Shown: positions 8,961 through 57,636 of the stretch, piece by piece | How positions within the stretch are numbered: the stretch's first letter is position 1 | How the letters are laid out: each line of letters opens with the position of its first letter | Assembly: GCA_946699065.1 (NCBI GenBank) | Contig: CAMPDV010000211.1 | Span: 428,083-492,082 of the forward strand | DNA: 64,000 bases | Direction of reading: 5' to 3' | From: Loxodes magnus | Taxonomy: Eukaryota; Ciliophora; Karyorelictea; Loxodida; Loxodidae | Translations under genes and position numbers: made by a program | The notes under the pieces: model-generated | The model's input: the letters and a program-made list of their open reading frames with translations, nothing else | Databases searched by the model: none | What the model was told of the DNA's origin: nothing

Positions 8961-11357
8961 ATGGATTTAACTATCTGTTAGAGTTGTAGCAAAGTCTTCG
9001 ACTAAAATCAAAGATTACCCAAAGTTTTATAATGTGGTTGTATTTAATGTGCTAAATGTATTAAAAATGTTTCTAAATTAACTGATACAATAAAATGCAA
9101 AATTCACAACTTGTAAGTAAGTATAGAAGAGTAGAATCTTAAGAATTTCGACATAAAAGAATATTTCAAGTAATAGCTAAATAAGTTTGAGCATTAAGCT
9201 AATCTTATCCAACTGATTTAAGACTTATCGGGACAAGCCAAAATGTAAAAGGCAAATATCTTAAGTATCAAGAAAACATGTCTGGATTGCCAAAAGATCT
9301 TTAATAAAATAGTAAAATAAGTTACGTGGATAGTATGTTAAAGAGAAATTGATGAGAGATAGAAGATAGTAAATGAAATAGAGTAAGTATTAAGAAAGAT
9401 AAATGCTCTAAGTGAGAAGTATTAGTAAATAAAGACATTAAAGGTGGTAACCAGTTCAGAATGCAATTGTAATATAAATGCATTGAATGAGGTAGTATCG
9501 GAATTTGAAAACATGTAAAATGAAATGCAAAGAGTAAGGTCTTTGAGTTACTAAGATGTAAGTCAAAATTATAAGAAAATTCAAGAAATTTCTTTTAAGG
9601 TCTTTTAGGAGATTACGAGTATGAATCCTAAACAAAGATCAGATATATAAGATTTTACAGTTGTTATAAGAAAATACATCAATCTATAAAGCCAACCAAA
9701 GTAAAATTAGGCATAATAAGTGAGCCAACCTTAAGAAGAAGCCAAAAAATAAATCTAAGGACAGAAAGTTACATAATCAATTAACCCAAAAGTTCCAGAA
9801 TAAGTATAAGCAGCTTAAATCGTAAAATAGCCACTTTAAAAACTCAAAATCGAAAGCACTCAGCACCTATAAAGTATTCTTAATGAATTTTAAAGTAGAT
9901 AAATAGATATGAGTTCCGTCTTAAATAATCCATAGAATATAATAAACTTATATTAAAAATCAATGATTCTTTACGATTTAGTGCAATCTAAATCTGAGAA
10001 GATTTAGTAATATCTTTTATAGATTTTGAATTCAGCTAAGAATAAATCAAAGATGTAGTTGAGTGCAGTCAATTCATTAATTTTATTGAATTATATGAAC
10101 TTCGAATTCATTAATCAAGATTTATAAAACATTGACCTATCTAACGCTGATCTCTCTGACATAACCTTCACAAACTGTAAATTCTCTAACTCCAACCTAA
10201 CTTCTGCCAACCTCCGCAACACAAAATTTATTAATTGTGACTTCTCAAACGCTAACTTATCATCCGTAATAACTGAACACCCTCAAGTTTTCACTGGACA
10301 TTCGGACTCAGTCACTTCGGTGGCCATCTCACCAAATAGTGACTTCATCGTATCGGGAAGTGTAGATAAGACGGTGAGACTATGGGACGCCAAGACAGGT
10401 GTTTGTAAGGCCATGAGTGGTCACACTAGTTTTGTATATGCTGTGGCTATATCCAGTGATTCAGAGTTCATTGTATCGGGAAGTGGAGATTAGACGGTGA
10501 GACTATGGGACGTCAAGACAGGTATTTGTAAGACCATGAGTGGTCACACTAGTTGTGTATATGCTGTGGCTATATCCAGTGATTTAGATTTCATCGTATC
10601 GGGAAGTGGAGATTAGACGGTGAGACTATGGGACGTCAAGACAGGTACCTGTAAGACCATGAGTGGTCACACTAGTTGTGTATATGCTGTGGCTATATCC
10701 AGTGATTCAGAGTTCATTGTATCGGGAAGTGGAGATTAGACGGTGAGACTATGGGACGTCAAAACAGGTATTTGTAAGACCATGAGGGGTCACACGAGTT
10801 CTGTTATAGCTGTGACTATATCTAGTAATTCTAACTACATTGTATCTGGATCATATGACTAAACTCTTCGTTTATGGAACACAAAAACTCTATCTTGTAT
10901 AAGGGTCTTATCGGGACATACTGATTCTGTCTTTTCGGTAATATTATCAAATAATAACAAATTTATCTTATCTGGATCACGAGATAAGACAATAAGAATC
11001 TGAAATATCAAAAATGGATAGTGTGAATGTGTGCTATTGGGTCATACAGACAGTGTGGGTAGTTTATCATAATCTAAGGACAACAATTGGTTGTTATCAA
11101 GTAACGGAGTTAAGTGATTTGGAAGTTAAAATCTTAACTAATCAAGTGATTACAATTTCCGAAGATGAAATATGGGAAGGATAATGAATGGAGAATAGTC
11201 CAATAACTAATAATAGGTAAGTTCGATTTTAGTATATAATTATCTAGTAGATTGATTGGAATAAAATATATGCTGACTATGGATTGCGATTTTAGAAATG
11301 TACAATGGACAACATCATCCTGAGTGGAGAGGATAAACAAAGATATTCTATAACTGA
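8961..11357 (+). CDS. RING-like / coiled-coil / pentapeptide / WD40 protein
   Basis: One frame of about 798 codons from ATG 8961. Residues 6-49 form a RING-like finger with C6, C9, C25, C27, C30, C33, C46 and H49. Cys (CGC) stands where a classical RING has the CGH histidine. Residues ~50-380 are charged and helical with a second Cys pair (CLDC). Residues ~380-435 are pentapeptide repeats (NADLSDITF, NSNLTSANL, NANLS). From ~437 run WD40 repeats with GH and W-D dipeptides, four of them near-identical at DNA level with a 123-nt period. TAG replaces AAG in the D-x-TVRLWD motif of several repeats, so TAG is sense. Five in-frame TGA codons (11001, 11115, 11166, 11253, 11274) occur only in the last blades; at 11001 it gives the blade Trp (TIRIWNI). 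The next TGA, 11355, is my stop; 11400 is the alternative. Probably a ubiquitin-ligase-like scaffold; catalytic activity is unproven. Confidence 0.75.
10420..10911 (+). repeat. Near-identical 123-nt WD40 repeat units
   Basis: The word GTCACAC recurs at 10420, 10543, 10666 and 10789, exactly 123 nt (41 codons) apart, with only a few substitutions between units. This indicates recent amplification or gene conversion inside the WD40 domain of the gene starting at 8961. Confidence 0.85.
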
Positions 11358-12619
11358 CTGTGTAATTTTTTGAGTTTATCTATTTAATTTTAGTATTTAT
11401 GAATTTAAAATTGTTAAGTCTTTATTTCTAATTAATTGTATTTTTTTCTTATAAATAGGTAGAAGATAAAAAATTCTAGGTATAGATTTTATTCTAAGTT
11501 TTTTTTGAGCTTAGTTAATTTTTAAATAAAAGTTTAAATTTAATTTAAATAAAGCGTTAGAGTAATTAGGAAATTTTTTAGTAAATATTTTTTTAACAAA
11601 GTCCGAGCTAATTTTTTTTTTTTTCAAGTATAGTATTAGAGATTTGAGCTTTGTGATATGAAAATTTATTTATCTTTTTATGAAATTTAGTTACACTTGT
11701 TATAATCTCATTTTATTATTTTTAAGTTGCGCAAAATTTTTTATTTTAAGATGGTAAAATTGAGTGTACTATAATAAATTATTTTCAGATAAAATTTTAT
11801 GAAGTAGAAACATGAAATTTGTGAAAATAAAAAAAGCCTTTTTTGCTAAGATTTTTACATGTAAGACTTTTTTCGGACGGAATAAACTTAAAAAATTTTG
11901 AAGAAGGAGTTTTAAATAAGGATTTTTATTTTTTGAATGTATATGAGATATCAGAAAGTAAAAAATGTCTTAAAATACAAAAAATGTTAAAATTTTTGCA
12001 ATAGAATTGAGCTCTAAAGGAGACTTTGGATCGGAAAAAAGTAGAAAAAATTGGGTTAAAAAAAATTACAAAAAATAGTAAAAAAATAATGGAAAATCTC
12101 AAATTAAACCATAAAAAAAGAAATAAGAGCTATCAAATGTTATATATAGCTTTTGAAAATTAAGGAAAAAACCTTTAAAAAAAGATAATTGAGATTTTTT
12201 GTAAAAAAAAATTGAAAAAGAAAGTTTTAACAAAAGTATGCAGAAAAATAAAGTACATTTGAGGTATAGAAAATCAAATAGAAAAAAAAACTATTGCAAA
12301 AAAACAATTAAAAAAAATTCTCTATAAGAAAATAAAAGGATGATTAAGAACTAAGAAAAAATATTATCTTAAGAATTTAAACAAAAAAAATGTTTGAAAA
12401 AAGTAGAATAAAAATTTAATGTATCAATTTAAAGAGAAAAGCTAAAAGAAAAAAAAATAATTAAGAAAAGAATAAAAGATCAAAATAAATACAAGTTCAA
12501 AAAAGCTCAGTTTTAAGAGAAAAAAAAAAAAAGTTTAAAAGAAGGCTAAAATTGAAATTATGTAAAACACTGTAAAAAAAAAAAATTTAAAAAACGTAAA
12601 GCAAAGCATTTAGTAAAAA
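11358..12619. other. A-rich low-complexity spacer
   Basis: Plus strand dominated by A runs (12,030-12,600 especially), with no supported ORF. It separates the WD40 gene from the 3' end of the decayed reverse transcriptase on the opposite strand. Confidence 0.45.
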
Positions 12620-12771
12620 AGTCTTAACTTCAGTTATAAGGAAGTATCTAAGCTTTGAGATAAGAGATAAAGGAAGTAATGAGTAAGTGATTTGAAAAGA
12701 AAAGTGAAGAAGTCTTAACTTCAGTTATAAGGAAGTATCTAAGCTTTGAAATACGAGATAAAGGAAGTAGT
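12620..12771. repeat. Direct repeat, two ~61-bp copies 91 bp apart
   Basis: The stretch AGTCTTAACTTCAGTTATAA and the following ~40 bases occur at 12,620 and again at 12,711, differing by a few bases. A shorter match (AAGTCTTAACT) lies near 14,259, at the other end of the decayed reverse transcriptase, so the repeats may be related to that element. Confidence 0.75.
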
Positions 12772-17010: not shown

Positions 17011-20000
17011 TCATTCAAACCTTCCATCTCTAACTATAAAAACTTACATGGCTTTGTTTTCTAATGGATTTAAATGATTAACAGTTTGTAATCTTCGGCC
17101 GTCGATATCGAAGGTAGTATTCCTAATTTCTGAGATTTTATCTTTTTACCTTATGAATTACTTAGGCTAGAGTTTACTAATCTGCTGGTTTTGTTCTTTT
17201 CTTTTCTCATTTAATTGGCTCTCAATATTAGTGGTATTCTAACTCTGAATATTTGGACTAAAATATGCTAATCTATTGCTTTGTAGAGGAGATAAGGAAA
17301 TTAAATGCTTCTTATAAAGAGAAATATGCTTATTAAGTAATAAAGCACTAGCAAATGGCTTAAAAGCAAATCGAAATAGCATAGTGTTATCTTGTTCTTT
17401 TCTATAAAGAAACTAAGGAGATTTTTTTACTCAGAAGGATCCTGCGAAGAAAATAATAAACCATCCCAATAATAAAAGAATCACTCACACTCCATCCTCC
17501 TAAGTATTAGCATACATGCTAATAATAGAAAGAGTTGAAATTCAAATAATAGCTAGTTAGCTTAATATCTAAAAGTGGAGAATTCGAAGATAGTTATAAG
17601 AATGCATTCTATAAGTAAGATAGGCAAAAATAATGAAGATGCTCAAAAATGTAATTCCTTAGCACTCTTAACTCTTCCTATAAAGTGTTTTCTGCATTAA
17701 AATACAAAGGAATTGAATGAAAGTTTTGAGAATTATGAATTAAACTGATTGCTTAATATGTGTCTCTGCTTGCAATTATTGAATCAAGGGACGTAAAAAT
17801 GTAATAGAAGGTATGTAAAAAGTCAAAAATAGGGATGAAATAGTAACGTATGTTAAGTGCATATCTCTTCAGCAAAAAGTGTAGTAATCTTAGCAAAAAT
17901 AACTCTCTTCTCAACTTAAATTCCCATCTCTATCCAAATCAGTAGCATCTATACATTGAAAAGCATCTGTCGTAATAAATAAAACTGGAACGAAGCTAAT
18001 TTACCCAATGATTGGTAAAAGATAAAAGGAAGAATAATTAAGAAAAGTTGCTAACCAATTTTAAGGATATTTTTCTTCTAGTCTTAAACAGAGGAAGAAA
18101 ATCATTAATATTCAGAATAATATTATAATGATAGAAATAACGAATAAAAGATTAAAGGCAAAATTTCCGTCAACTACAAATCCATAAAAATCTAGCTTGA
18201 ATAAATTAAATATCTAGGACACTTTCGAATGAATATTAGATAAATTTGGTCCTAATGAAATATACTAGCATTACTCTAATATTAAAAGATAAACTCAAAT
18301 CCCATCTTCCGTAGTCATCTCTTCCTCTTATTCAAGATCTTTAATCTCTAATTTTTTCAGCATCTATATGCTCATAGTCCCATTAGAATTATTATTAATA
18401 GCATAAATATTAATATTGCTGCAAATAATTTCTCTCCATTACTGAAATTCTAGATATCTCTACTACGAAAAGGATAATCAATGTCTTAAATGAAATCCTT
18501 AGGAATGTTATAAGTTCCAACTCCTCACATAATATCCTTCTCAAATTATAAAGCTATAGAGCAACTGACACAAAATAAGCCTATTTTATCAGCTTATCAA
18601 TTATCTTTTTCAATAATTCTTATATTTATAATATCATATCTTTTATTAGTGGGATCATTAGACTTAATGTCAATTTCCAATGGTCCACTTATTCCTATAA
18701 TTCTTACTTTTCTAAGAGCTTTATTTACAATTTCTCAGTTACCATAATCTTACCCTTAAGATATGGTATAATTAAGAGCAGCACCTACTAAAAGAACTGC
18801 GTCAAAACTGTATGAAGCGAGTCAGTCTGGATCAACTCCATAAACTTTTTAATGCTCTTCATATATTTACTTTCCATATTCAGAGCTATAAGCTAAAGGA
18901 TTGTATTATAAAGCACCCTTTATGATTTCCAAGGTTTTTAGGCGAATTTCATTTTCAGTTATTAATTATAAGATATTGTTTGAGACTCATTCATTAGCAA
19001 GTCAAATTCAATCTCCACTTCTTGCTCCAAGGTCATACAAATAAGGAAATATAAAATTTAAAGCTTCAAATTGATAGCAAACGCATATTCCAATTCTAGC
19101 TCCACTATTTTAAAAAGCTTCGACTTAAGGTTTCCACTAAGAGTCATTTTTTTCAGCAAGATCAGAAGGGTAAATTCTTTTATCTTAAGGATTAAGAATT
19201 TAAATTCCTCATTTTTTGCTTCTATTTCTATATCTCTACATAATGAAAAGGCTCATAAGTCTTCATCACAAAGAAGAGCTATTTTACTTCACTTATAAAG
19301 ACGAATAATTCTTATCTGCAAAATTGCCATATAAGCATCTGAATTAATTACTCTTACAAAGTTAGGATATAAACTTTTGTCTGAAAATACTTCATTGGTG
19401 CATGTAGCTCCCACTGCAAGCCTGTATTAATTTTATTCATATAGAAGTGCCATCCAATCCTTAGTCAATCCTGATGAATAAGTGGTAAGCATAGCTACAT
19501 TCATTTAATTTTGCATTTCTTATATTACTTCCATCCCTTACTTCTTATTGAAATCATAGCTTTGGTTACATGATATATAGTAGCCATTTGGATGAATACG
19601 ATAGTATTGCAAAATATCATTCCTTTCGTTTATTTAGTTAATAGCTAAATGTATTCCTTGAATAATAGAGTAGAGTTAGGGATCAATACTTCCATCAGGA
19701 TTCCTATCACATGCTGAATAAGAAATTTATATAAAAGCATTGTCATCATTAAGAATTTAGTTAGTGTTACCTAAAAATAAAGGCTATTAAAGTCATTTAA
19801 TGCTCTTATTCTAAACTACCCCTACTTCTAGTAATCTTTAACTTTGAAAGTTGAAAATTCTATATTCTAACTTAATTTTTTATGCATGTTTAAGGAAAGT
19901 TTGGTATACACTTTGGAATTAAAAATGAATCTAAATTACATTTTCCAACTCTTATAAATATTGCGTTAAGAAAAATCATTTCATCTAAGCTTGGGAGCTA

Positions 20001-23289: not shown

Positions 23290-24280
23290 AGAAACTTAAG
23301 TTATGAATCCGTTAATCGTATATAGCTCTAATCAAGTTTTTCAAAAAAAGACAGGTAAGATGTAAAGCTTAAGAACTCTAAACTGTAAGAAGAACTTTAA
23401 GATTGCAAACCGTTAACATTGCGTGCTGAAACACTAAAAGACTGTAAGATGAACTTAAAGTTTGGAATCCGTTAATCCTTGAAAGCTCTGATCAAATTCT
23501 CCAAATTTGAACTGAGAATCGAAAATGCTACGTACTAAAAGACTGTAAGAAGAATTTTAAGTTCGGAATCCGTTTTCCTTAAGAGCTCTAACCAAAATCT
23601 CAAAAAAAGTCTGTGTAGAGTTAAAGTTTATGAACTTTAAGAGTTTAAGAAGAACTTTAAGTATGGAATCCGTATCCTTTAGAGCTCGATTGTTTTCTAA
23701 AGCATAATCTGATTATCGAAAGTGCTGAAATCTAAAAAACTGTAAGATGAACTTTAAGTTTTGAATCCGTTAACATTGCGAGCTCTGATCAAGTTCTAAA
23801 AAAATGTCTGAATAGATGATAAGCTTAAGAACTTCAATACGTTATGAAGAATTTAAGTTTGGAATCCATTTTCTAGATTGCTTTGTTCTTTTTCTCAAAA
23901 TACGTCTGAGTTACGAATTAGCGTAAGTACTTAAAGAATGAAAGTTCAACTTATTTTATAGACTCCGTTTCATTTGAGATCTTTGGTTTAGTTCTAAAAA
24001 TTTTATCGGGATAGAGTTGGAAAACTTAAAAATTGAAAGAAGAATTTTGACTAAAAACTCCATTCGTTTCATATTTATATCCAGTTCTTAAATTATTAGT
24101 AATAAATTTTAAAAGCGGAAGATTTTATGTTTGAACATTGAATTTAAAACTGTTTCTGCTTGATAGCTTTGGTCTAGTTCTCAAAAGGACTCTCATTAGG
24201 GATAAAGCTGAAGAACCTAGAAGATTTTAAGTAGAACTTTGAATAAAAACTTCGTTTTACCCTTTCTAAGGATTTTCACA
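23290..24280. repeat. Tandem array of ~100-bp units, about 10 diverged copies
   Basis: The core GGAATCCGTTA and variants recurs near 23,309, 23,408, 23,468, 23,570, 23,668, 23,767 and on, mostly about 100 bp apart. Each unit also carries words such as CTGTAAGAAGAACTTTAAG, GAGCTCTGATCAA and GAGAATCGAAAGTGCT. The units become more diverged towards 24,280. The period is not a multiple of three and frames are broken, so I treat it as a minisatellite and not coding. A longer array of the same family lies at 53,665-55,420. Confidence 0.8.
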
Positions 24281-24852
24281 CTCTCATTCTTTTTACCATA
24301 TTCTTACTTAAAATTTCTGAGAAATGCAAAATAATTTCATTTTTTTGCATTTCTGCTGGAATGAGTCTTTTTTTGTAGTTCTTTTCTTCTTAAAATTTTT
24401 TAAATCGTTAAATTTTTCTTCTTTAGCAGTTCCGAGCTTCGTATTATCGTCTATTTTTTTCTCATTCTTTTCTTCCTACATTCTAAAGATTTTAAAAGAG
24501 CTTTAGTCTTAGTAAATGTTCTAACTTAGCTAGTTTTTTTGATATTAAGATTAGTTAAAGATTGTGTCCCTTTTTTAGTGCATTGCTCCTAGTAGTTTTT
24601 AAAGATTTTAGGATAGAGATGTTTTTGTTATTTATAGAATAAAAAATGTGATTAAGTTGTAAAGCTGGTTGGTTTTTTAAATTTAGCAAAATGTATTGGT
24701 GCGGATTGTAGATAGGTACTTGATATAAGAGGTTAATATTGTAGTATGTATGTAATGATAGATATTTGAATTTATAATGGTTAATTATAATTTTTGATGG
24801 TAACTGTTATAAATTACCTTTATAAGCTTTTTTAATCTAAATAATAATAAAA

Positions 24853-26298
24853 ATGTAAGCGTTACCAAAATGCTTAATCTGCTAAGAAGATTACAACTTA
24901 ACTAATGCTCTTCCAACTGTCTTACCTTGTGGACATATTTACTGTGGTTTGTGTTTGAATACTCAGTTCTGATTATAAGGCATAATGTAATGTCCTATTT
25001 GTTAAAAAGGATTCCATTTTAGATTTGAAGACTTACCTTAAGAAAGTGATTTAATAAGAATGATATTTTAAAACTAATAATACATATAAAAGATTTAAGA
25101 TGCTAGATAGAAATTAAAAGAGATAAGGAAGTAAATTATGCAAAAATCTAAAACCATTACAACCAAATTATCTAACATTACTAATACTCTCATTATACCA
25201 TATACTAATATCATCCAATACACTACCATTAACTACAACTAATAACACTAAAATATTATACAATCATCCTAATTCCCTATTTACTAATATCTAAAACCAA
25301 CTCAAATCCAAACTATAACAGTCTAACTATATTCCACTATATAACCACCTTTAGTACTAAACCCTAAATTAACTTCAAATTATATCACACAAATAAGAAA
25401 CTAACTATAATACAATACTAAGTAACAACAGTTAAACACTAAACAGGCTAATTAACATAAACTAACCTAGTAGCAACATTTTATTCAATCTAACTATATT
25501 CACTTTTTTAATTGAACAATTTAAAAATTTACTTTATTTAACATTTAAACCGAGTAATTACGATAAGTCTAAGTTTAAATTATAATTCCAGAACTTAGTA
25601 AAAGTATAGAATATTAAAATAAGTTATATTTAATTGGAGGATATAACTAATAATAAAATAAAGGAATAAAAGAAACTTGATAGTTCGATTTCGAAGGTAA
25701 TAATACAAAACTTAGTGATCTAAATGAGGGAAGAAGTGATTTTGGATTAGCAGCAGCTTAAAATTATCTTTATGTGGTTGGAGGAGTTACTAGTATAAAT
25801 CAACCTTTAAAATCAGTAGAAAAGTTAAAGATAGGAAACTAAAGTAAATGATAAAAATGCTCTTAATTTCCATTCTTAATATCAGGCTAAACTTTAGTAG
25901 TAGATAAAGATGAATAAAACATTTATTCAATTGGAGGTGGAGATTAGAAAGGATAAACTTTAAAAGATATATGAAAGTATAACATATAGAATGATAGATG
26001 GAGTAAGTAAAATTTGAATCTTCCTGAAGCTGTTGCTTGTCCTATAGTTTCTTTAGGGCCTTTTGTCGTAATCGGAGGTATAAAAAATCCATTTACGAAA
26101 GAATTTTCAAGAAGAATATATAAAAGAAACAAAGAATAATGGCAATAAAGTTAAATTTTTAAAGATGTTGCAGCTTTAACGGAGATGAAATTAAGAGGTG
26201 TCTATGGATATGTTTTTGCTTATGAATAGGAAAGATTTTCAATAATGAGGATTGATTTAGAAAAGTTGAGTTATAGAAGTATTAAAGGGGATAACTGA
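24853..26298 (+). CDS. RING-kelch protein (putative E3 ubiquitin ligase), copy 1
   Basis: One unbroken frame of 481 codons from ATG 24853. Residues 7-50 form a canonical C3HC4 RING (C7, C10, C26, H28, C31, C34, C47, C50), the E2-binding fold of ubiquitin ligases. A short helical segment follows, then residues ~105-235 are low complexity (Thr, Asn, Gln, Ile, Tyr) encoded by almost G-free DNA. From ~260 on are kelch motifs with glycine pairs (LIGGYN, YVVGGV, YSIGGG, VVIGG) and Trp at the expected places. Five internal TGA codons (24970, 25513, 25678, 25849, 25972) read as Trp; the last gives DIWKYN, a classic kelch blade. The ORF ends at TGA 26296 (GDN-stop); reading on gives unstructured sequence, so I place the stop there. 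Copy 2 at 56191 has the same length and the same TGA codons. Confidence 0.85.
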
Positions 26299-27585
26299 GA
26301 TAATAATAATATTGATATGATTAATATTATTGATAATAAATATAGTTTTATATGTAAGTAGTTTAAATATCTATAGTAAATATGTTACTACTTATTAATA
26401 TGGTTAATCTATACTTATTAATGTTGTATTTTTATAAGTTTTTTTGTATGTTTAAGTGTATATATGATGTTGATATGGTAATGTAGTTATAGCTATATAG
26501 TTGACAATAAAGATTATTTTCCTTACTAGCTCTTTTTAAAGCTGAAATAAATAAAGAATCAAATTTTATCTAAACATCTTTAAAAATCTATTATTCAAAT
26601 ATTATCATTATTCAGATACTAACATACAGCTTATAACATACCAAAACATATTCAACAATGTCAAAAAACTATCTTTAATATATCCTTATATTTAAATTAT
26701 ACAAGTACAGATTACTATTTATCTAATCAAAACTATAATCAAATTATCATTAACCTATATCTAAATACAAGTCATTATTACTATCATACACTCTAAAATA
26801 CATACTTTAATACCAACTACTAAACTTTCCTATACACATATATCAAATCAGGCCATTATAACCCCTATACTTTTGATAAAAGTTCAATCATAATAAATAA
26901 ATTATAATAAATAACAACGTACACTTGTGTGATAAGCCTTACTTATTTGAGGGTTCTCAATCGGTACCAGAATCTAACTAGGCTGAAGTCCAAGTCTCGG
27001 AGTAATCCTGCCTCTATGTCGTTTATCTGGTTAGGAATTGGAAAAACCTGAAGACATGACTGATACAAATTATATCTTTAAGTATAAAATTAAATTCGAT
27101 TGTGAAATTTGGCACAAAAACTGGATTTTATTCTAATCCCTTTTAAATTTAGCCTTCGGAAAAAATACAAGAATTTTGAGTGTAAAGGTAATATATTTTT
27201 ATTTAAAAAACTGAGACAAAAGTGATCAAAGAGATCCGACGAAACAAGAAATATTTCTAGACTATTTTAAAATCCAAATTTTGTATTTTTTATTAATCGT
27301 GGTGAACCTAATAAAGGTAGAATCACGTTAATTTATTTATCTTTAGAAACGTTCTCATCAGATTATTAAATCCTAGCCTCCTTATACTTAGCAGATAAAA
27401 CTTCCCTTTTAAATTTAGTCTTCTAGGTAATATTCAAATTAATACTTACTTCTGTGATATTCGATAATAACTTAGAAAAAGATGCAAGAGAGTAGAATTT
27501 ACATAATTAAAATTTTAAGTTGTCTAAAAGTAGTGTAATATATTACTTAGTAGTACATGAAGGTTAATTGAACCAGCTAAATATT
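26299..27585. other. Spacer with a G-depleted tract and a more GC-rich block
   Basis: 26,540-26,880 is C-bearing but almost G-free on the plus strand, like the linker of the RING-kelch gene. 26,940-27,060 is richer in GC (words GGTTCTCAATCGGTACCAGA, GTCCAAGTCTC) and well conserved in copy 2; it could be a small RNA or retroelement 5' sequence, but it matches no RNA I know. An ~80-bp segment around 26,862-26,940 is absent from copy 2. Confidence 0.45.
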
Positions 27586-28390
27586 ATGAATAATCCTTGA
27601 ATTAAATTAAAAGTTCTGAAGAGCCCTACTAGAGAGTAAAGATCTCCTAATGTCAGTGTATCAGGAAAAATATTGAGACCTTTGACATTACGGAAAGGCT
27701 CTGATGTAGTAAAATATATTCCTGATATTGATATTTTTGTAAGAAGAGGAGTGGTCACTGTAGATAATCCTTTTGAATTCATAAATTATGGAGTAAAAGC
27801 GTTATAGATTTGTCCTTTTGTTTAAAATTAGACTTTTCAACAGTGCTCTATGATCTTAAAACAAGTCTGAAACAGCTAATTTATCAACTTATTAAAAAAA
27901 TAAAAAAACTCGAATAGGAATTAAACTCCCAGGAGAAAGAGATGCTTGTATTAAGTCAGGATTTGATAAGATGATGATGAATTCCATATGGTAGACCGAA
28001 GAGCTAAAGTCGGAGTTTATGAGCAAATGACAAGTTTAGAGAATAATATTTGAATAATGCAAGAGTAAGATAAGAAAAACTGAGCAAAATTAGATTCTAT
28101 GCTTAAATTAATAGAAGAAAACCTGTAGAAGCCTTCATAAGGAACTCCAATCGAAATAGAGAAACAGGAAGGGCATTTCCTAGAGCAAGAAAAAGATGCT
28201 ACATTTGCAACAGCACTTGACATTTATGACGGAAATGTCCTCAATAGAAAAGAAATAAGAATGAATATCTGGAAAAATGTTAACTAATAGCAATTGAAGT
28301 TTCGAGTAAAGGAATTCTTCCCATCGGGAAATGCGAAAATCTAGAAAAAAAGTTCTCAACTCAGATTATATAAAAGAGATCAGCAATTTT
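27586..28390 (+). pseudogene. Retroelement ORF1-like remnant, copy 1
   Basis: An ORF from ATG 27586 reads for about 90 codons (NNPWIKLKVLKS, DIDIFVRRGVVTVDNPFEF). After a frame change it becomes clearly homologous to the intact ORF1 at 7.1-8.2 kb: LEQELNSQEKEM, VHMVDRRAKVGVYE, NNIWIMQEQDKKNWAKLDS. The zinc-knuckle part (RCYICNSTWHL) lies in yet another frame. At least three frame shifts make it a pseudogene. Similarity to the 7-8 kb ORF1 stops near 28,385, where an unrelated ORF begins. Confidence 0.65.
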
Positions 28391-30090: not shown

Positions 30091-31117
30091 GAAAATTATC
30101 TTTCTAGTTCAAGCACGTTTTGGTCCATGAATTAGGTTTTATTATATTCTATAAATTTGATGAGTAAGTCTATTAGATTATCGTGCTTATTGAAACCACT
30201 TCACCTTTCATTCTAACTGTTAACACTTTTATTCAAAAGCATCTCTGAGTTTAAAATCTTCTTTGGTTCTTTTTTTGCTGAGTGAACTAGTTTAATCTCT
30301 TTTTTCGGACGTTCAAAAATGATTATGGTAATCGTCACTTTGTTTCTTTCTTAAAAAGTTCTAAAATATCTTTACATATTAATTTTAGAGTTAATAATCA
30401 GATTAATATAAACTCTTTTATATGTTACTCTTCGGCCTTGACAGCTCTTTTCCCTTTTATTTCCTTTTTCCTTGGTAGATTATCTCAATTTCCTTTATTT
30501 AAAAAACTGCTTTTTAATTATTTCTTCAATAATTTAAACTTTTCTAGTACTTTCTGTATAAGTACTTACTTTCGTCGTTTAGTCAATATGCTTTAGATAT
30601 TTTTCTAGATACTGAAGTTTCTTTTAAAGCGATTTGTTGATCCTTTATAGCTTTAGTATTTGGAGTTTTATCTGATATAGATAAACTAGGAACTTTGCAT
30701 TTGGGCTTTTCTTGTTTGATTTATATTCTTGAGCCAAATTCTGCTATTAACCTCTTTTTTGTTATCATTTTTTTAATCTAAAACACTTTTCTTCTTTCTA
30801 TCTAACCCTGATTTCTAAGATGCTTAGCTCAAGTTAGTAGGAGGAACTTATTTATTCTCTAAATTCTTATAATCATTTGGCGTCGGCTTGATTCCTTTTT
30901 ATTCTAGTATTATAGTAGATTTTTTAAAACTTGAGGCTTTTCTGCTTACTTACTATCTTTGCAAATTAGAGCTTAAATAGCTTTCTAAATTAGATTGGAT
31001 TTGTAAAATTTTTTAATTAGAAATTTTTTGAGTAACCTGACTTTATTTATCCTTTAGACTAATTTAATTTTACTATTTTTCGCTTTTACTTAGATTACTG
31101 TTCCACCTGTCGCTCAT
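30051..31117 (-). CDS. Polar unknown protein, two frame breaks, copy 1
   Basis: From the ATG at 31117-31115 the translation is polar and disordered (MSDRWNSNLSKSEKQQ, SRKASSFKKS, GIKPTPNDYKNLENKQVPP), typical of real ciliate proteins. Near 30,740 the frame shifts to KCKVPSLSISDKTPNTKAIK and near 30,350 to ERPKKEIKLVHSAKKEPKK, which continues to a helical C-terminus (NLIDLLIKFIEYNK, LELERQFSHFQKLRNEL) and a TGA at 30053-30051. Each shift equals one missing base. The start lies 32 bp downstream of the stop of the LRR-like gene on the same strand, and the end overlaps the plus-strand TGA at 30088 by ~38 bp. No family recognised. Confidence 0.5.
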
Positions 31118-31149
31118 ATCTTGATCATTCTTGCATTTTACTAAATTTA

Positions 31150-34142: not shown

Positions 34143-34187
34143 AAGGAGAGTTAGTTGTAGGCTTAATATTATGAGACTGTTAATTTC

Positions 34188-38079: not shown

Positions 38080-41000
38080 TCATGTAGATTTTATTATTCT
38101 ATAAATTTGATTCATATAGTCTTTTTTGCAAAATATTTAATTGATTATGTTTTAATTATATTCTAAGAGCTCTTGTTCTATATTTTCATAAATATTTGCT
38201 TAGTTTATATTATTTTACGCTTTATTTTTGCTTTTAATAATTTTATCTATTTAGTTTTTAATATTATCTATACTTGTTTGGTAGTATTTACATTTGAATA
38301 TGTGTTAAAATGTCTCTTTTTCTTGACATAAGCATTAATCATATTCTTAAGGAATATGTCTTTCTTGAAGATCACTTCTAAAAAAAAGTAGTTAGGTTCT
38401 CAGTCTGAATATTAATTTTGATGGTTGCATTTTCTCTTTGTTCAATAAAAAGTAGGTTATAATTGGGAATTTTTCTACATTTTTGAATTACTTTGTTATA
38501 ATTTTTGCTGTGATCATTTCTTTTTTTCTTTTTTTTGTTGTTTTTGTTATTCTCTAAATTGTTTAATTAAAAAATTGTTCTTTAATTTTTACATCAATTT
38601 TTTTATCGAATTACATCATATTTAGATTTTATAAAGCTTTTAAATCTATTTTAAATTTCTTTTACATTTTTTAATTTACTTCTGTTACTAAGTCTTATTT
38701 TTTTAACTTATTTAGAATAATTGGATAAACTTTTCATCTTTATTCTTAGATTATTACTATTGATTATATAAGTCATTTAGTTTTCTATAAAATTTAAAAT
38801 ATCTTTTTGCAGTTATTTATTCAAATCCAAGTCAGTTAAAATCTATGTGTTGTAACTCATTTCAAGATGCTTATGGCATTTTCATATATTATCTTATAAT
38901 TTATCGTTAACTTACATGTATTTAGTTTTTCACCTTTGTTATTCCAGTTTGTATACTATATGGAATTATTTCAGCACCATATTCTAATTTAGGTAGAATA
39001 AATAATCTGAATAAATTTTTGAAATTAATTGGGATCGTCTTATTAAATCTGCTGTAAAATTACTATTAAAATAAGTACTTGGCCTACTAATATTTATTTT
39101 GTACTTTTTGTATATTTGTAATTAATTAATTATTCTGATCAATTGTGAATCTTAAATATTCAACAGTTTTTTTAATTAAATTAGCTTCCCTTATATTTTC
39201 AAATCTAATTTTTTTTAGTTCTCTTATTTCTCTTTACTAATATTAATGCATTCGGTTTTTATTAAGTTTATTTTTAATTTTATTATATTGAATATTCTTT
39301 AAATTTGATCTATTAATTATTACATTTTTTAAGCGTTGTTGTTGGAGATTAGTAATAGATCGTCAGCTCATGCTAATTTTGAGTATTATGTATTTCCTAT
39401 CTTGTATCCTAATTTATTATATTATTCTAAGTATTACATAGCAATATCATAATAAATTATGGCTAGTATAGGTCCTGGTGAGCTTCCTTAAAGTGTACCA
39501 TTTTTGTAGTCTATTTTTCTAGTGATTTAGTCTTCTAGTTAAAAGTGTATTTGTACTTGAGAATATATGTTTTTCAATGTTTTTATTAAATTATCGGCTA
39601 TTTTAAATCTTTCTAGTTATTTAAAAAGTAAATAGTGATTTATAGAATCAAACATTTTCTCAATATCAATCAAGGTAAAAATAAACGATTCATTTTCTTC
39701 CTTTTTTTTCTTACTTTCTTAATAATGATTCATTATCTATTATATTTGTCATATGTTTATTGTAGTTTGTATTTTCTTTATGAATCCTTTTTAGTCTTTA
39801 TTAATTTGGTTTTACTCAATTACATCTTTATATATATGGTTTGATATTATCTTGTCGAATATTTTTTAGATTGTATTTATAATTGCTATTGGTCTATAAT
39901 TTTTTCAATCATATTTGGAATCTTTTTTATGGATCATTATTGTTTTAATTTTATTTAGTCCAGCAGGGATTAATTAATCACATTAGCAGTTTTGATAGAA
40001 TTTTGTTAAAATTTTTCAAAGTTCGTGTCCTGCATATTTAATTAATTCATTTGGTATTTAATCAAAACCTGGAGCTTTATTATTTGGGAGGTATCTTATT
40101 ATATCAGCAACTTCTTAATATAATATTTTACTACATGATTGTGCTATTTTTTATTAAAGAATTTTATTTTGTTTGTAGATTTCATCTATTTTTGCTACCT
40201 CTTTAAGTATTTCTTATTGATTAGTATCTTTATATTAGTTTAATGCACTTTCTCAATTTTTAATAAATTATTCTGTCTAATTTGAATTGAGATTCATATT
40301 TAGAGCTTTTTGAGGATTGAAAATTTTATTTGCTTGCTTAGCCACTTCCTGGTTATTACCGTTCAAATTTATTTATTTTTACCCATTTATATTTTTTCAC
40401 ATGGCATTCTTCATTTTTACGAATTTTTTCTTTTACCTTTTTGCCTCTAATTTCATTTAGATGACTTCATCATTCATACAGTTAAATTAGTTTAATTTAT
40501 TTATATATTATATTCTTGCATTTCTGGCTTTATTCATTTATATCACTACAGATGAAGGCAGTTTTGGCTGATTTTATTATCTTTGATCAAGTATCTCCAA
40601 AGCTGCAATATGGATTAAATTTTTAATAAATCTGTATTATAACGATAAATTCAAATTTTATATATTATTTTCAAAAAAATCATAAGCACCAAGGAATTAG
40701 TTTTTATATAATTATAGTTTTTCTTAGTCTTACAGTTTATTTGATTATATATCATTCTTATTTACTAATTTTCTGCATTTAAATTAACTGTCATTTATTT
40801 TAGCATTATATTCAGTATTAAGAGATAATGGTCAGTATTAACTCCTGTTTCTTTATCTACTTTGAATATGTATTTTGTTGATTACTCTAAGTCCTAGTCT
40901 AAGAAGATATAGTCAATGATTTATTGTCTTTTGTTTTATTTTATTTAATGTGTGGGAATTTATTTTTAATTTGTATCTATGAGTTCATTAGCTTATGTAA

Positions 41001-44729: not shown

Positions 44730-45400
44730 TCAACTTATTATTTTCCACTTTTTCACAGTATTATCATATCCTCCTGATACTATTCATTTGTTGTCCTTAC
44801 CCAATGCTACAGAATTTAGATAATTTTTTAGCCTTAAAGAGTTTATATGCATTCACCTATATTAAAGTTCCATATCTACATGATCCAGAAATTGCAACAC
44901 TTGAAGTTACTAAACTGAATACTTGATACAGTATTTGAATGGCCTTGAAGAGTTCGAAGTAGCTGACTAGTTGTTAATTCCCATATATTGATCGATTTAT
45001 CATAACTTCCCAATAAAATTCAATTCCAATCACTTGATATCGCTAAAGAATTTACACCATTCGTGTGTCCTTACAAAGAACTTTTTAATTAACCAGTTGC
45101 TAAGTTCCATATCATTATCGTACCTTCAGAACATCCCGATACGATTCCTTTTCTGGTCTCTTGAAATCGCTACAGATAATAAAGGATTCGTATGTCCCTA
45201 TAAAGTAATCTTACACTAGCCAGTTGTTAAGACCCATATCTTTATCGTATTATCTCTATTTCCCGATACGATTCAATTTTAGTTACTTGATATTACTACA
45301 GATAATAAAGTACCGTATATTCTTGGAATATTTTATCTAAATATTAAAGAATTACCTTTATTTTTGTCGTAGTTGATTATATTTTCCAGTTAAAAAAAAA
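44730..45400 (-). pseudogene. WD40-repeat fragment, 5'-truncated
   Basis: Four to five WD40 repeats on the minus strand: NWIVSGNRDNTIKIW, GTIMIWNLATGQLKSSLQG, SLAISSDWNWILLGSYDK, SINIWELTTSQLLRTLQG, KWIVSGGYDNTVKKWKIIS. The last ends at TGA 44732-44730, directly after a TGG Trp. Internal TGA codons give Trp in KWIVSGG and NWILLGS. There are two or three frame breaks and no N-terminal part: upstream of 45,400 the sequence dissolves into an A/T run. The repeats resemble those of the gene at 8961, so this may be a truncated copy of that family. Confidence 0.65.
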
Positions 45401-45888: not shown

Positions 45889-48800
45889 ATGTAATAGGAG
45901 AATCTTGAACTTTTAAGAAATGTATAGGAGCTTGAAGGGGAAAATCGCATACTGATGTCTAGCATTTAAGAATAAAAAATTTAAAATAAGTACTCAGCAA
46001 ATATTAGAATCGAATAATAGAAACAAAATTCAGCCAATTCGCAGTGCTAACCGAAAGTATATTCCTTTAAAATTAGTCAATGGATGTAGACCTAAAGATA
46101 AACAAGAACAAATTTACTTATAGAAGTGAAAAAAATAATACTGATCATATTAAACATAAACACTACGTTTAAAAGAATAGCTAAGAGGAGTGTAGTATAC
46201 ATTATATCCAAATCATCTCTATCAAAAACTTCTGAATCTCCTACTGTTAAAACAAAAGAAGAATTTAATATGTTTTTAAATAAAACTTCTTCACTCTTAG
46301 CTGTAACATATAAAAGGCCAATTAAAATTGAAGTATAAGTCATTATAGAATGGAAATATCTTATTTTGTAAAGGGAATCTTTAATCAGTCTCATGTAATA
46401 CTTTGCTTCAGTAAAGGCTCTAAAGTCTGCAGACCCACCTATACGTTCAAAAGAAGAGCAATCAATTAAATGCTTCTATTTAAATGTAACTAATGTAAAA
46501 GAATAAATATCTTAATATTAGTTTCCTATATAGAATAATGATGCTTGCACCTAAGCAATGATAGGATACTCAAAGTTCTAATTTCAACGGTTTTATTACT
46601 AAAATCATTTCCATTTTCAGACTGTTGCTTTACTCTTAGTAATTGCATATCTTATCTTATATATAACGTCTTATGTAACTAAGAGTATTTAAATCCAATG
46701 TGCATTTCCTTAAAATGCTACAATTATTAAGAAACTTGCTTATTAGTTTTAAGTGGATAATGTAGCGCTGAAAAAAAGGTAACAAAATATGTAATTAAGA
46801 ATGCTTAGTTCATTAATGTGGTTGAGATGCAATGGACTACTTAACTTCATAACTTTCAAATAAGAATTATAACTTTAGATCTTTACTATAAAACTCATCT
46901 TTCTGTTCTCCAGGCTGCTTGGATTAAAACTTTAATAATATAAAAAGGTAAGTAGGCAACGAAAATTGTGATTTAGCTTGAATGACTGAAAGTTGTTAGT
47001 GAGATTAAGGAGATTGTTGTGGAAAAGAAGCTTCATTTTATGATTATAATACACTAAAAAATTATAACTTCCCAGTGATAACCTGCTTCACAACCCTTAT
47101 GAATAGATCGATTATTGAAGATGATAAAGACTCGACCTTTAATGTTATACTCCTATGTGCTCAAGTACTTCAAGTTCCAACCAAACTTGATTAGATTGAA
47201 GTGATAAGGAATGACTTTATTCTAACTGAGAATAACCTTAGTAGTAAGATGAAAATAATCAATAGAACAGTGGAAATAATCCATAGAATATGAGTTGAAA
47301 TTATGCAAATGTATTAGATTAAAAATGCAACGAAGATTATTGCCACCATTAAAATGACTGCTTACTATCTTCTCAACTTAAATCCACAATATAATTGTAA
47401 CTAGAATTTAATAGGTAGCAATGTATGCGATATAGTTTGCTACGAAAATTCTAAAAGAGATTAGAATATTCTGTGCAAATTCGATGGTAATAGCTGCTAA
47501 GCTTGCATAGATATCTATAATACATGTCTTCAATCTTAAGGGAATAGCATATGCAACTTAAGTTGCTATAATAAATAATGTAACTGAGATGGCGGAGATT
47601 GTAAAGAGTATTTAGAGAAAGGCTACAAAATCAAATAAATTGGAGATGGAACTTATCAATAATTATGCTATTACGAAGTATGCTTTTTTGATAATAATAA
47701 ACAAGGATAAGATGATTATTTGTTATGCTCTCAAACGAAAGGTACTTTAGATAAGCTATGTAATAATTAATATGATAGAGAATGTGGTTTTTTAGAATGC
47801 AATTATGACTCAATCGTTGTTTAGTGTAGAAACATCATTAATCAAAATGATTTATATAAGTTTTGTATAATTCAGGATAATAATTGTACTAGTGACAAAT
47901 GTCTGGGTTTTTACGATTCTTTTTTATATGTAATTAAAAATAATGTAGAGGAAATTATTTTAGTTATCATAATATCTGTTAAATAGGAAATGGAATATGT
48001 AATGAAGAACTGCTAAGTTCTGATTGTAACTATGATGGTTTGAATTGTTGTACAACAGATTTAGTCAAAGAATGTTGCAATATAAGTCTGGCAATGGATG
48101 AATTTTGCCATGATAGATAATTAAGCGTTTAAAATTGCAGCTCTTTTTACTGTGGCTATGATAATGCTTAATGTTAATTTAAAGTAACGAATAAATCAGA
48201 TTCTTATGAAGGATTTCCTTGATATCCAGAGTTATTTAATAATGGATTTTGCGATCTTTAATGTTTTGTTAAGTAATGTTTAGAAGATAGAAGAGATTGC
48301 ATAAAATGTTTAGATACATTATGCTTTACAGTTAAAAGAGTAATAGATTATAAGAATGATAGTGACTATTGAAATAGTTATTGTAGCTTTGATACTCACC
48401 CTAGAGTAAGGAAACTATTCAATTATAACATTTCTTAATACATCTTTTTCAGCGACCTGTGCTTGATTAAATATACCTCTGATGTTAATGATCTTCAGTC
48501 TTGCATTTACAAGATGAATATTACTGTGAAGACTGGTGCAACGTTTTAGAGTGCAATTATTGCAATAAGCATTGTAAATGCTCTAATTCAAGGCAGCAAG
48601 AAATTGAGTATATGAAAAGTTAATTCCTGGATTCTGATCAATGAATCTAAGTGAAATGCTAAGCTCTCAAATCTTTTAGTCTTATTTATTAGGGAATGGT
48701 TAATACGATGAGCAATGCTATTTTAAAGACTGTGCTTGATATTAGAAAGATTGCATTTATTATGAAAGTGATGGAGAATAATGTGTTGATTATATGAAAT

Positions 48801-51748: not shown

Positions 51749-52869
51749 TAGTAAAATTAGAAATTCTGAATTTTATAACTAAACCTATACAAAATATTTG
51801 ATTGCTTTGTAAAATTGGAATTATATATAGTTCATATTAGTAAAGTTTAAGTAAATACTCTAATAAACGAAATATAATTTAAAAATGTTTATATTATAAT
51901 TAATTATTTAATTTTCTCAATTTATAAGACTAGCATTTTCTAAGCAAGATATATATTAATAACCGAAATGAGACATATAAAACCAAAAAGAAATAATTGT
52001 ATATTTAAAACTATCTCTTAAAGATATAAAGTTTAATATTTACAAGAAAAAGAAAATAAAAGCAGAAGATTGATGTATAAAGAAGTAAATATTGGGAGAA
52101 TATAAAATTAAATAAAATGTAAATAAATTAATAAAATTAAAAAACTAAAATTTTAATATTCAAAGAAGATCTGACTTAAAAAATCAAAGTTCATTCTTCA
52201 TAAATAGATTGAGCCCAATCAATCACTTAAATGATGCATTACTAGGTTTAGAATAATGTAAATATAAAAGTGAAATTAGAACTTTAGTAAAAAATTATCT
52301 TTTATAAGCGATGGAAATTGTTTCTATCTTACTATTGAATCCCCATTCTTAGAACATCTATCTAGTTAGGCAAAAGTAGTTCAATACGAAAAGATATAAA
52401 TTAGGAAAATAAGAAATTTATTAAGGATAGAAAAAATATCAATCAGAAATAAAATAAAAGTAATTAACTACTTAAAAAATCACCAAGTAAAAAATTTCAA
52501 ATGAATGAATCCAAAAAAAGAATAAAATTTGTTTAAATACAATAGTCAGCAAATAAAAAATGACTGAATCTTTGTTTTTTTTATTAAAAAATAATAAGTT
52601 TTAGTTTCTTGAAAGAAGTAGAAATGTATTCACACAAAAAATTCTAGAAAAGTAAAAAAATAAAAAAAATAATTGAGAAAAGCAATAAATAAGATAAAAA
52701 TTTATAAAAAGCTGATTAAGGATGACGTCAGATTGTATACAATTATCTTTAGATAAAATATTTAATTTAAAAATCTAAATAAAAAGGTTTAGAAAAAGAA
52801 TTAAAAAATAATCCAAAAGGTGATAAAAAGTGCTAAATAAAGAGAAAAGTATTGAAACATATTAAAAAG
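51749..52869. other. A-rich spacer
   Basis: AT-rich, with A runs on the plus strand. No ORF with protein-like character seen; it should contain the promoter of the ARF-like gene. Confidence 0.45.
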
Positions 52870-53633
<764 letters not shown>

Positions 53634-53664: not shown

Positions 53665-55420
53665 GATGATAAAAAGCTTAAGAACTAAAAGACTGTAAGA
53701 AGAGCTTTAAGATTGCAAACCGGTAGCATTGCGAGCTTGGATCTCTTTCTAAAGTTATATCTGAATATCGAAAGCGCGGAAATCACAAAATGACAGTAAG
53801 ATGAACTTTAAGTTAGGAATCCACTTTCCTTTAGAGCTCTGTTCAAATTCTGCCATTGAACTGAGAATCGAAAGTGCTTAAATATTAAAATTCTGTAAGA
53901 ATAACTTTAAGTTAAGAATCCGTTAATCGTTAAATGTTCTAATCAAGTTTTCCAAAAAGAGACAGGTAAGATGTAAAGCTTAAGAACTTTATACTGTCAG
54001 AAGATCTTTAAGATTGCAAACAGTTAACATTGTGAGCTCGGATCTCTTTCTATAGTTATATCTGAATATCGTAAGCTAGGAAATACAAAAAGATTTTAAG
54101 ATGAAATTAAGTTAGGAATCCGTTGTCCTTTAGATTTGTTTAAATCATGCAATTGAGCTGAGAATCGAAGGTGCTAAAATCTTAAAGACCGTAAGAGAAA
54201 CTTAAGTTTTGAATCCGTTAATAGTTAAAAGCTCTTTTCAATTTCACCAAAAAAGTTTGCTGATAAAAAGCTTAACTACTATAAAATTGTAAGAAGAACT
54301 TTAAGTGGCAATCCGTTATCGTTGCGTGCTCGGATCTCTCTCTATAGCTATATCTGAATATCGAAAGTGCTGAAACACTAAAGACTGTAAGATGAACTTA
54401 AAGTTTGGAATCCGTTTTTCTTAAGAGCTCTGTTCGAATCCTTCCATTGAACTGAGAATCGAGAGGGCTTAAATGATAAAAATCTGTAAGAGAAATTTTA
54501 AGGTTGGAATCCGTTAATCGTATATAGCTCTAATCAAGTTCTCAAAATTTGAACTTAGAATCGAATGTGCTGAAATATTAAAAATCTGTTAGAGAAACTT
54601 AATTTTGGAATTCGTTATCTTTGCGAGCTCGGTTGTTTTCTAAAGCATAATCAAATTATCGAAAGTGCAGAAATCTAAAAATCTATAAGATGAACTTTAA
54701 GTTTGGAATCCGTTAATCCTTGTAAACTCTGATCAATTTATCCAAAAAAATTTGCTGATATAAAGCTTAAGAACTAAAAAACTGTAAGAGAAACTTTAAG
54801 TTTGGAGGCCGTTAATCCTTGAAAGCTCTGATCAAATTCTCCAAATTTGAACTGAGAATCGAAAATGCTAAGTACTAAAAGACTGTAAGAAGAACTTTAA
54901 GTTCGGAATCCGTTATCATTGAGAGCTCTAATCAAAATCTCAAAAAAAGTCTGTTTAGAGTTAATTTTTATGAACTGTAAGACATAAAGAAGAACTTCAA
55001 ATTTGGAATTCGTATCCTTTAGAGCTCGATTGTTTTCTAAAGCATAATCTTATTATCGAAAGTGTTGAAATCTAAAAAACTGTAAGATGAAATTTAAGTT
55101 TTGAATCCGTTAACATTGCGAGCTCTGATCAAGTTTTCAAAAAATTCTGGATAGATGATAAGCTTAAGAACTTCAAAACTTTAAGAAGAATTTAAGTTTG
55201 GAATCCATTTTCTAGATTGTTTAGTTCTTTTTCTCAAAATACGTCTGAGTTACGAATAAGCCTAAGTACTTAAAGAATGAAAGTTCAACTTATTTTATAG
55301 ACTCCGTTTCATTTGAGATCTTTGGTTTAGTTCTAAAAATTTTCGTCGGGATAAAATTGAAACACTTAAAAATTGAAAGAAGAACTTTTACTAAAAACTC
55401 CATTCTATTTCATATTTATA
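53665..55420. repeat. Tandem array of ~100-bp units, about 18 copies
   Basis: The AATCCGTTA core or a variant occurs near 53,717, 53,818, 53,917, 54,016, 54,117, 54,203, 54,309, 54,408, 54,508, 54,609, 54,706, 54,806, 54,908, 55,008, 55,106, 55,200, 55,300 and 55,400, a very regular ~100-bp period. It is the same family as the array at 23.3-24.3 kb but nearly twice as long. It starts immediately after the ARF-like gene and leads into the second copy of the duplicated unit. Confidence 0.85.
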
Positions 55421-56190
55421 TCCAGTTCTTAAATTATTAGTAATAAATTTTAAAAGCGGAAGATTTTAAGGTTGAACATTGAGTCAAAAATAGTTTCTGC
55501 TTAAGAGCTTTGGTCTAGTTCTCAAAAAAAATCTCATTATGATATAGCTGAAGAACCTAGAAGATTGTGAGTAGGACTTTGAATAAAAACTCCATTCTGT
55601 CTTTCTAAGGATTTCCTCACTCTCATTCCTTTTACCATATTCTTACTTAAGATTTCTGAGAAATGCAAAATAATTTCATTTGTTTGTATTTCTTCTTGAA
55701 AGAATCTTTGATTGTAGTTCTTTTCTTCTAAAAATTTTTTAAATTTATAACTTTTTCTCTTTTAGCAGTTCCGAGCTTCGTATTCTCTTCTATTTTTTCT
55801 CATTCTTTTCTTCCTACATTCTAAAGATTTTCAAAGAGCTTTAGTCTTAGTAAATGTTCTAACTTAGCTACTTTTTTTGATATTAAGATTAGTTAAAGAT
55901 TGTGTCCCTTTTTTAGTGCATTGCTCCTAGTAGTTTTTAAAGATTTTAGGATAGAGATGTTTTTGTTATTTATAGAATAAAAAATGTGATTAAGTTGTAA
56001 AGCTGGTTGGTTTTTTAAATTTAGCAAAATGTATTGGTGCGGATTGTAGATAGGTACTTGATATAAGAGGTTAATATTGTAGTATGTATGTAATGATAGA
56101 TATTTGAATTTATAATGGTTAATTATAATTTTTGATGGTAACTGTTATAAATTACCTTTATAAGCTTTTTTAATCTAAATAATAATAAAA

Positions 56191-57636
56191 ATGTAAGCGT
56201 TACCAAAATGCTTAATCTGCTAAGAAGATTACAACTTAACTAATGCTCTTCCAACTGTCTTACCTTGTGGACATATTTACTGTGGTTTGTGTTTGAATAC
56301 TCAGTTCTGATTATAAGGCATAATGTAATGTCCTATTTGTTAAAAAGGATTCCATTTTAGATTTGAAGACTTACCTTAAGAAAGTGATTTAATAAGAATG
56401 ATATTTTAAAACTAATAATACATATAAAAGATTTAAGATGCTAGATAGAAATTAAAAGAGATAAGGAAGTAAATTATGCAAAAATCTAAAACCATTACAA
56501 CCAAATTATCTAACATTACTAATACTCTCATTATACCATATACTAATATCATCCAATACACTACCATTAACTACAACTAATAACACTAAAATATTATACA
56601 ATCATCCTAATTCCCTATTTACTAATATCTAAAACCAACTCAAATCCAAACTATAACAGTCTAACTATATTCCACTATATAACCACCTTTAGTACTAAAC
56701 CCTAAATTAACTTCAAATTATATCACACAAATAAGAAACAAACTATAATACAATACAAAGTAACAACAGTTAAACACTAAACAGACTAATTAACATAAAC
56801 TAACCTAGTAGCAACATTTTATTCAATCTAACTATATTCACTTTTTTAATTGAGGAATTTAAAAATTAAGTTTATTTAATATTTAAACTGAGTAATTACG
56901 ATAAGTCTAAGTTTAAATTATAATTCCATACAATAGTTAAAGTATAGAATATTAAAATAAGTTATATTTAATTGGAGGATAAAACTAAAATTAAAAGAAA
57001 GGAATAAAAGAAACTTGATAGTTCGATTTCGAAGGTAATAAGACAAAACTTAGTGATCTAAATGAGGGAAGAAGTGATTTTGGAATAGCAGCAGCTTAAA
57101 ATTATCTTTATGTGGTTGGAGGAGTTACTAGTATAAATCAAGCTTTAAAATCAGTAGAAAAGTTAAAGATAGGAAACTAAAGTAAATGATAAAAATGCTC
57201 TTAATTTCCATTTTAAATAGCAGGCTAAACTTTAGTAGTAGATAAAGATGAATAAAACATTTATTCAATTGGAGGTGGAGATTAGAAAGTATAAACTTTA
57301 AAAGATATATGAAAGTATAACATATAGAATGATAGATGGAGTAAGTAAAATTTGAATCTTCCTGAAGCTATTGCTTGTCCTATAGTTTCTTTAGAACCTT
57401 TTGTCATATTTGGAGGTATAAAAAATCCATTTACGAAAGAACATTCAAGAAGAATATATAAAAGAAACAAATAATAATGGCAATAAAGTTAAATTTTTAA
57501 AGATGTTGCAGCTTTAACAGAGATGAAAATAAGAGGTGTCTATGGATATGCTTTTGCTTCTGAATAGGGAAGAGCTTCAATAATGAGGATTGATTTAGAA
57601 AAGTTGAGTTATAGAAGCATTAAAGGGGATAACTGA
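56191..57636 (+). CDS. RING-kelch protein, copy 2
   Basis: Same 481-codon architecture as the copy at 24853: C3HC4 RING at residues 7-50, a G-free-DNA low-complexity linker, then kelch repeats. All five internal TGA codons are retained and the reading frame is unbroken to TGA 57634. Differences are few substitutions (for example GLAAAQ versus GIAAAQ). Retention of an open 1.4-kb frame with TGA at conserved Trp positions in both copies argues that both are functional and that TGA is translated. Predicted role: substrate-binding E3 ubiquitin ligase. Confidence 0.85.

Follow-up and report, generated by a model that had tools for sequence, protein, structure and literature searches.

Which codons end a gene, and which are read through, in the DNA of Loxodes magnus, a ciliate of the karyorelict group? 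We addressed this question in a stretch of 64,000 nucleotides (assembly GCA_946699065.1, contig CAMPDV010000211.1, positions 428,083 to 492,082, forward strand), which is called the window throughout. An earlier reading of the window, made from the letters alone (the sequence-only reading), had announced that all three stop codons are reassigned, TAA and TAG to glutamine and internal TGA to tryptophan. Both assignments stood, while plain reassignment of UGA did not. UAA and UAG mean glutamine, and UGA means tryptophan within genes and stop at their ends, since internal TGA scores as tryptophan and genes end in TGA. The announcement was therefore an overstatement, as its own last sentence allowed by naming a karyorelict-type code with UGA as tryptophan or stop; that code is borne out by codon inference in two gene families and by TGA at gene ends. 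At a probability of roughly nine in ten, the window uses NCBI code 27, operated jointly by transfer RNAs (tRNAs) with the anticodons UUA and CUA, a tRNA-Trp(CCA) with an anticodon stem of 4 base pairs and an eRF1 whose NIKS region is altered. The DNA itself shows what the codons mean, that genes end in UGA, and that genes for these tRNAs and for eRF1 are present. This code has already been published for L. magnus, and our observation is known, not new; for the field it is a confirmation, in which the Loxodes code was recognised correctly from raw sequence.

The length of open reading frames was of little help. Under the standard code the window has no stop-to-stop stretch of at least 150 codons, vs. 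212 in six frames if TGA alone stops, but this number by itself is weak evidence because most of these stretches overlap or are non-coding.

Meaning of TAA, TAG and TGA

Codon meanings were inferred in two families collected from the genome (705,730,643 bases in 7,843 contigs were searched; the macronuclear assembly of L. magnus is given as 706 Mbp in PMC11441545). Family rows were aligned after masking of TAA, TAG, and TGA, and codons were scored against the residues of their own columns, leaving unscored any column with fewer than 10 other residues in the kinases or fewer than 4 in the receptor-like family. The kinase set held 30 of 136 genome matches, and the receptor-like set held 20 rows, namely the window gene and 19 of 148 genome places, which are 43-85% identical in pairs if masked positions are taken as matches. 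As a control, 53 of the 61 sense codons were inferred correctly in the kinases and 51 of 61 in the receptor-like family. Neither set allowed the meaning of TGG to be inferred (2 cells were scored in the receptor-like family) because masking TGA leaves no other tryptophan codon. CAA was mis-inferred in both sets and CAG in the receptor-like family, partly because TAA and TAG were masked.

The strongest tryptophan site in the window is an ANF-receptor-like gene on the minus strand (18417-19184), which the sequence-only reading had not singled out. A genome search with this gene returned 148 scored places, including the window's own, and 3 to 11 in-frame TGAs were present in each of these places among the matches listed. 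Seven columns of the aligned family hold 111 TGA, 28 TGG and 1 phenylalanine in 140 cells. Six TGAs of the window gene (19010, 19004, 18989, 18824, 18599, and 18527) lie in these columns, and the seventh (18737) is in a mixed one. Scored across the family, TGA is tryptophan (307.6 vs. -37.9 for the next residue), and TAA and TAG are both glutamine (167.2 and 45.3, respectively). The column rule left 37 of the 140 TGAs unscored (103 scored), all 37 of them in two tryptophan columns.

The kinases gave the same meaning for TGA, with log-odds of 59.2 for tryptophan and -13.2 for the next residue, and 13 of their 21 TGAs stand in three tryptophan columns; TAG came out as glutamine with a score of 20.1. 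Tabulation of the residues opposite TGA, a check that had been proposed with the sequence-only reading, thus led to tryptophan in both families. Selenocysteine, cysteine and arginine were dropped as meanings of UGA, since tryptophan scored far above every other residue in each.

Several observations weigh against these assignments. Outside clear tryptophan columns lie 8 of the 21 kinase TGAs and 29 of the 140 in the receptor-like family, the latter in ten mixed columns. Moreover, TAA is glutamine in the kinases only narrowly (4.6; next residue -7.2), the commonest residues of its columns being lysine and glutamate, and glutamine is poorly determined in that set because CAA itself comes out as glutamate.

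Glutamine was also examined in a histone set of 10 of 31 genome matches (5 H3 and 5 H2A genes). TAA or TAG occurs in 12 columns of the five H3 genes. In nine of these columns, every codon is TAA, TAG, CAA, or CAG, which identifies TAA and TAG as glutamine codons.

Gene ends and eRF1

All five H3 genes end in GERT-TGA, the five H2A genes fetched have a terminal TGA at the matching place, and both eRF1 genes (L047 and L048) end in DEDFL-TGA. TGA therefore closes 12 of the 12 genes whose ends were read; neither TAA nor TAG was found at any of these 12 ends, a small sample. The two eRF1 genes encode the motifs RAQNIKS and FLCENTF, which are also given for Loxodes striatus in a published table of eRF1 motifs (PMC4695839). 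The glutamine of RAQNIKS in our genes is itself encoded by a reassigned stop codon. A third locus, L046, was the best-scoring of the three matches to the eRF1 domain; it was kept out of the eRF1 counts because the NIKS motif is absent and it looks like Pelota.

Near the ends of messenger RNAs, UGA would be read as stop by this eRF1, in which the NIKS region is altered, and, as described in the literature, closeness to the poly(A) tail may decide between stop and tryptophan at a given UGA. Depletion of coding UGA just before the true stop has been published for L. magnus (PMC11441545).

tRNA genes

A gapped pattern for tRNA-Trp(CCA) had 128 genome matches, as opposed to 0 for the reversed control; two of the listed matches, which have other letters, were not called as tRNAs by ARAGORN. 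In the ARAGORN drawing of this tRNA, 27A does not pair with 43C, and the anticodon stem is thereby reduced to 4 base pairs. Anticodon arms of UUA and CUA tRNAs were sought with a pattern that had 287 matches vs. 12 for its reverse, and among 10 of the 287 places that were fetched, nine were called as tRNAs by ARAGORN (6 UUA and 3 CUA). The tRNA search suggested in the sequence-only reading recovered candidate genes for both functions. The UUA and CUA tRNAs would be dedicated to reading UAA and UAG as glutamine; their charging with glutamine is suggested by the meaning of the codons and by their tRNA-Gln-like bodies. These genes, together with those of the 4-base-pair-stem tRNA-Trp(CCA), are now listed for the L. 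magnus assembly, which is an addition of our analysis. The L. magnus paper (PMC11441545) does not use the word tRNA in its main text, and no list of the UUA and CUA genes of L. magnus was found in the portion of the literature on Loxodes tRNAs that could be searched, most subscription journals being outside it; this negative does not show the genes to be new.

Sense UGA would most likely be read by the ordinary tRNA-Trp(CCA), whose anticodon stem, shortened to 4 base pairs, would favor near-cognate pairing with UGA. This step is drawn from the literature, where the 4-base-pair-stem form is described as reading UGA in Blastocrithidia and Condylostoma, and Swart et al. 2024 is cited for its presence in Loxodes (PMC13092985). 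The same code could be served by a different route, such as a tRNA-Trp with a UCA anticodon, anticodon editing from C to U, or import of a tRNA from the mitochondrion. Editing and import leave the DNA unmarked, and our search for a UCA tRNA-Trp, which had 0 genome matches, sought just one exact variant of 24 bases, a limit that tells against our explanation. However, the tRNA-Trp copies seen carry CCA and the very stem reported to read UGA elsewhere and cited for Loxodes. We consider these other routes unlikely, and favor decoding by the 4-base-pair-stem tRNA-Trp(CCA).

Tandem arrays occur for genes of all three tRNAs. Those for tRNA-Trp(CCA) form two long arrays, on contig C67 (L033-L045) and contig C148, with units of ~187 and ~241 bases, and CUA and UUA genes are repeated on contigs C130 and C214 (L108 and L109) in units of 588 and ~275 bases. 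A genome search with the Rfam tRNA model returned 63 matches, and the 30 loci cut from it were all tRNA-Lys, with no suppressor tRNA among them. Within the window, ARAGORN found no tRNA at default settings, and its 109 calls in loose mode were treated as noise. A tRNA-like element of 67 nt is present at 248-314 of the minus strand (Rfam tRNA, 38.6 bits), with an anticodon region that is too short. It has at least 40 scored copies in the genome (the window's own, one at 97% and the rest at 96%), including copies arrayed in tandem on contig C22, where the unit is ~376 bases.

Comparison with known codes

Table 27 is stated for karyorelicts including Loxodes, with UGA as the sole stop codon that can also encode tryptophan (PMC11441545). 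Codon meanings, UGA stops at gene ends, assembly size and very short introns are common to the published L. magnus system and the one examined here, and no difference between them was found. Condylostoma magnum (table 28) likewise reads the three stop codons as glutamine, glutamine and tryptophan (PMC4967479), and likewise has a tRNA-Trp(CCA) with a 4-base-pair stem (PMC13092985). Nevertheless, all three codons end genes in Condylostoma (PMC4967479), in contrast to the exclusive use of TGA at the ends read here. If the window used the Condylostoma code, UAA and UAG would be stops as well as glutamine. The small number of ends read leaves some room for this, but the lack of TAA and TAG at every one of them and the description of UGA as the only stop of L. 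magnus (PMC11441545) make table 28 highly improbable, and we retain table 27. In Blastocrithidia, a 4-base-pair-stem tRNA-Trp(CCA) also serves UGA, whereas UAA and UAG encode glutamate and UAA is the stop, as opposed to glutamine and a UGA stop in Loxodes (PMC12153298).

Individual sites in the window

The sequence-only reading had argued for tryptophan from single motifs, and all six of the strings it quoted were found with TGA (w) in place: DIwKYN at 25972 and 57310, TIRIwNI at 11001, CqwDqGDC at 47000 and CNwDGGDC at 47585 on the plus strand, and the reverse-transcriptase box wADDLL at 39370 and an EF-hand string, cited without a coordinate, at 17913 on the minus strand. The AAG-to-TAG exchange it reported between WD40 units was seen as well (DKT/DqT). 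Its assertion that the family demands tryptophan at such positions holds for part of them only, the WD40 site at 11001 and the LNR site at 47585 faring better than the kelch and zinc-knuckle sites, and several of the single sites are weaker than claimed. In the WD40 gene, five blades upstream of 11001 have TGG at 10383, 10506, 10629, 10752, and 10875, a spacing of 123, and TGA 11001 follows 126 past the last of them in the same R-I-W-N motif; the site is outside the reach of the solved-structure alignments shown. TGA 47585 is opposite the tryptophan of the solved Notch1 LNR, though the E-values are weak (best 0.0028), and the similar motif at 47000 is outside the coverage of this alignment. 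In contrast, the masked residue at kelch 25972 is opposite glutamate in the solved kelch proteins shown, and the second kelch copy, being part of a direct duplication, adds no evidence of its own. A Pfam search of the 7134-8171 frame found no zinc-knuckle match, and one TGA, common to this frame and its two related copies, is at a position where such knuckles usually have glycine. The positions of the reverse-transcriptase and EF-hand TGAs (39370 and 17913) presumably accept several residues.

There is next to no chance that TGA is a plain stop and that frames with internal TGA are pseudogenes or transposon relics, as might be argued from the kelch copies (28 non-synonymous and 6 synonymous codon differences over a 416-codon frame, and hence no sign of constraint), the frame shift upstream of the knuckle in two of the three zinc-knuckle copies, and the retrotransposon nature of one TGA-bearing frame, since in our judgement it is refuted by the seven columns in which TGA or TGG is retained almost without exception among receptor-like members of 43-85% identity, with the repeated in-frame TGAs at the listed places of that family and the kinase TGAs in tryptophan columns also speaking against it.

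UGA use across gene families

The share of TGA among tryptophan codons is 0/8 in eRF1, 21/82 in the kinases, 3/10 in the WD40 gene of the window, and 133/162 in the 19 receptor-like paralogues, where TGA occurs at ~28 per 1000 codons. In the same sets, the A-ending share of lysine, glutamate, leucine (TTR), and arginine (AGR) codons is 0.63-0.83. With codons taken as independent, which they are not, the kinase share is far below this level (p ~1e-19) and the receptor-like share is not below it (p=0.76). Of 150 tubulin matches, many of them near-identical copies, TGA is absent from the top 30 and occurs 1 to 3 times in nearly all of the rest that were listed. We give even odds to the idea that sense UGA carries a gene-dependent cost, such that core genes purge it, kinases keep a quarter, and the receptor-like family has risen to the level expected from base composition alone. 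If so, leftover competition from eRF1 at internal UGA would sort genes by their tolerance of a truncated product. The tenfold spread of UGA use among families is a second addition of our analysis and provides a way to measure what an ambiguous stop codon costs. Highly expressed genes avoid the reassigned codons in Blastocrithidia (PMC12153298), which would be a further likeness to Loxodes, and UAA and UAG are avoided in highly expressed genes of another ciliate (PMC10553269). Many of the tubulin matches crowd on contig C64, which is also the site of several tRNA-Lys matches.

Other features of the window

Coding stretches were found with a codon model for which kinase domains from this genome and the WD40 gene served as training set, and were searched against Pfam as translations with TGA as tryptophan. 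Among the stretches submitted, matches were to WD40, ANF_receptor, Kelch, Notch/LNR, and Arf, as well as to RVT_1 in the reverse-transcriptase frame (Table 1).

Table 1. Genes, fragments and motifs of the window that contain in-frame TGA
Feature	Positions	Strand	TGA and TGG codons	Pfam match or remark
Zinc-knuckle-like frame, CYICNSTwHSWwKC	7134-8171	-		Two related copies elsewhere in the window
WD40 gene	8961-11373	+	Internal TGA 11001, 11115, 11166	WD40, E=6.4e-71
TGA in EF-hand-like motif DLDRDGNLSwEE	17911-17913	-		
ANF-receptor-like gene stretch	18417-19184	-	7 TGA, 1 TGG	ANF_receptor, E=2e-12 on 17850-19184
Kelch gene, copy 1	25687-26334	+	TGA 25849, 25972, 26296	Kelch_1, E=5.9e-18
Second ANF-receptor-like stretch	34221-34733	-	4 TGA, no TGG	E=2.3e-06 on 33921-34733
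Retrotransposon reverse-transcriptase frame	38601-40399	-	8 TGA including 39370, no TGG	RVT_1, E=4.2e-24
WD40 fragment	44966-45160	-	TGA 45022	
LNR (Notch-type) repeat stretch	46952-47953	+	TGA 46979, 47000, 47291, 47585; no TGG	Notch, E=6.5e-11
Next LNR-type stretch, other frame	47986-48582	+	TGA 48220, 48370	Notch, 20.2 bits (cut-off 21.2)
Kelch gene, copy 2, inside duplication	57025-57672	+	TGA 57187, 57310, 57634	

The WD40 gene has a putative GT-AG intron of 16 nt (11217-11232) and a putative stop TGA at 11371-11373, both predicted from sequence, and no in-frame TGA occurs in its last exon before that stop. By our reading, TGA 45022 of the WD40 fragment is not in a tryptophan position. 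The direct duplication that holds both kelch copies is ~9.2 kb long (23433-32817 and 54773-64000); its copies are 94-96% identical and about 31.2-31.3 kb apart, and the second is truncated by the edge of the window. An Arf-like GTPase stretch is present at 52786-53226 of the plus strand (Pfam Arf, E=2.9e-37), and it may be a degenerate copy, because residues of the usual motifs look altered (VDLDAAGKT and WDANKqQMKV).

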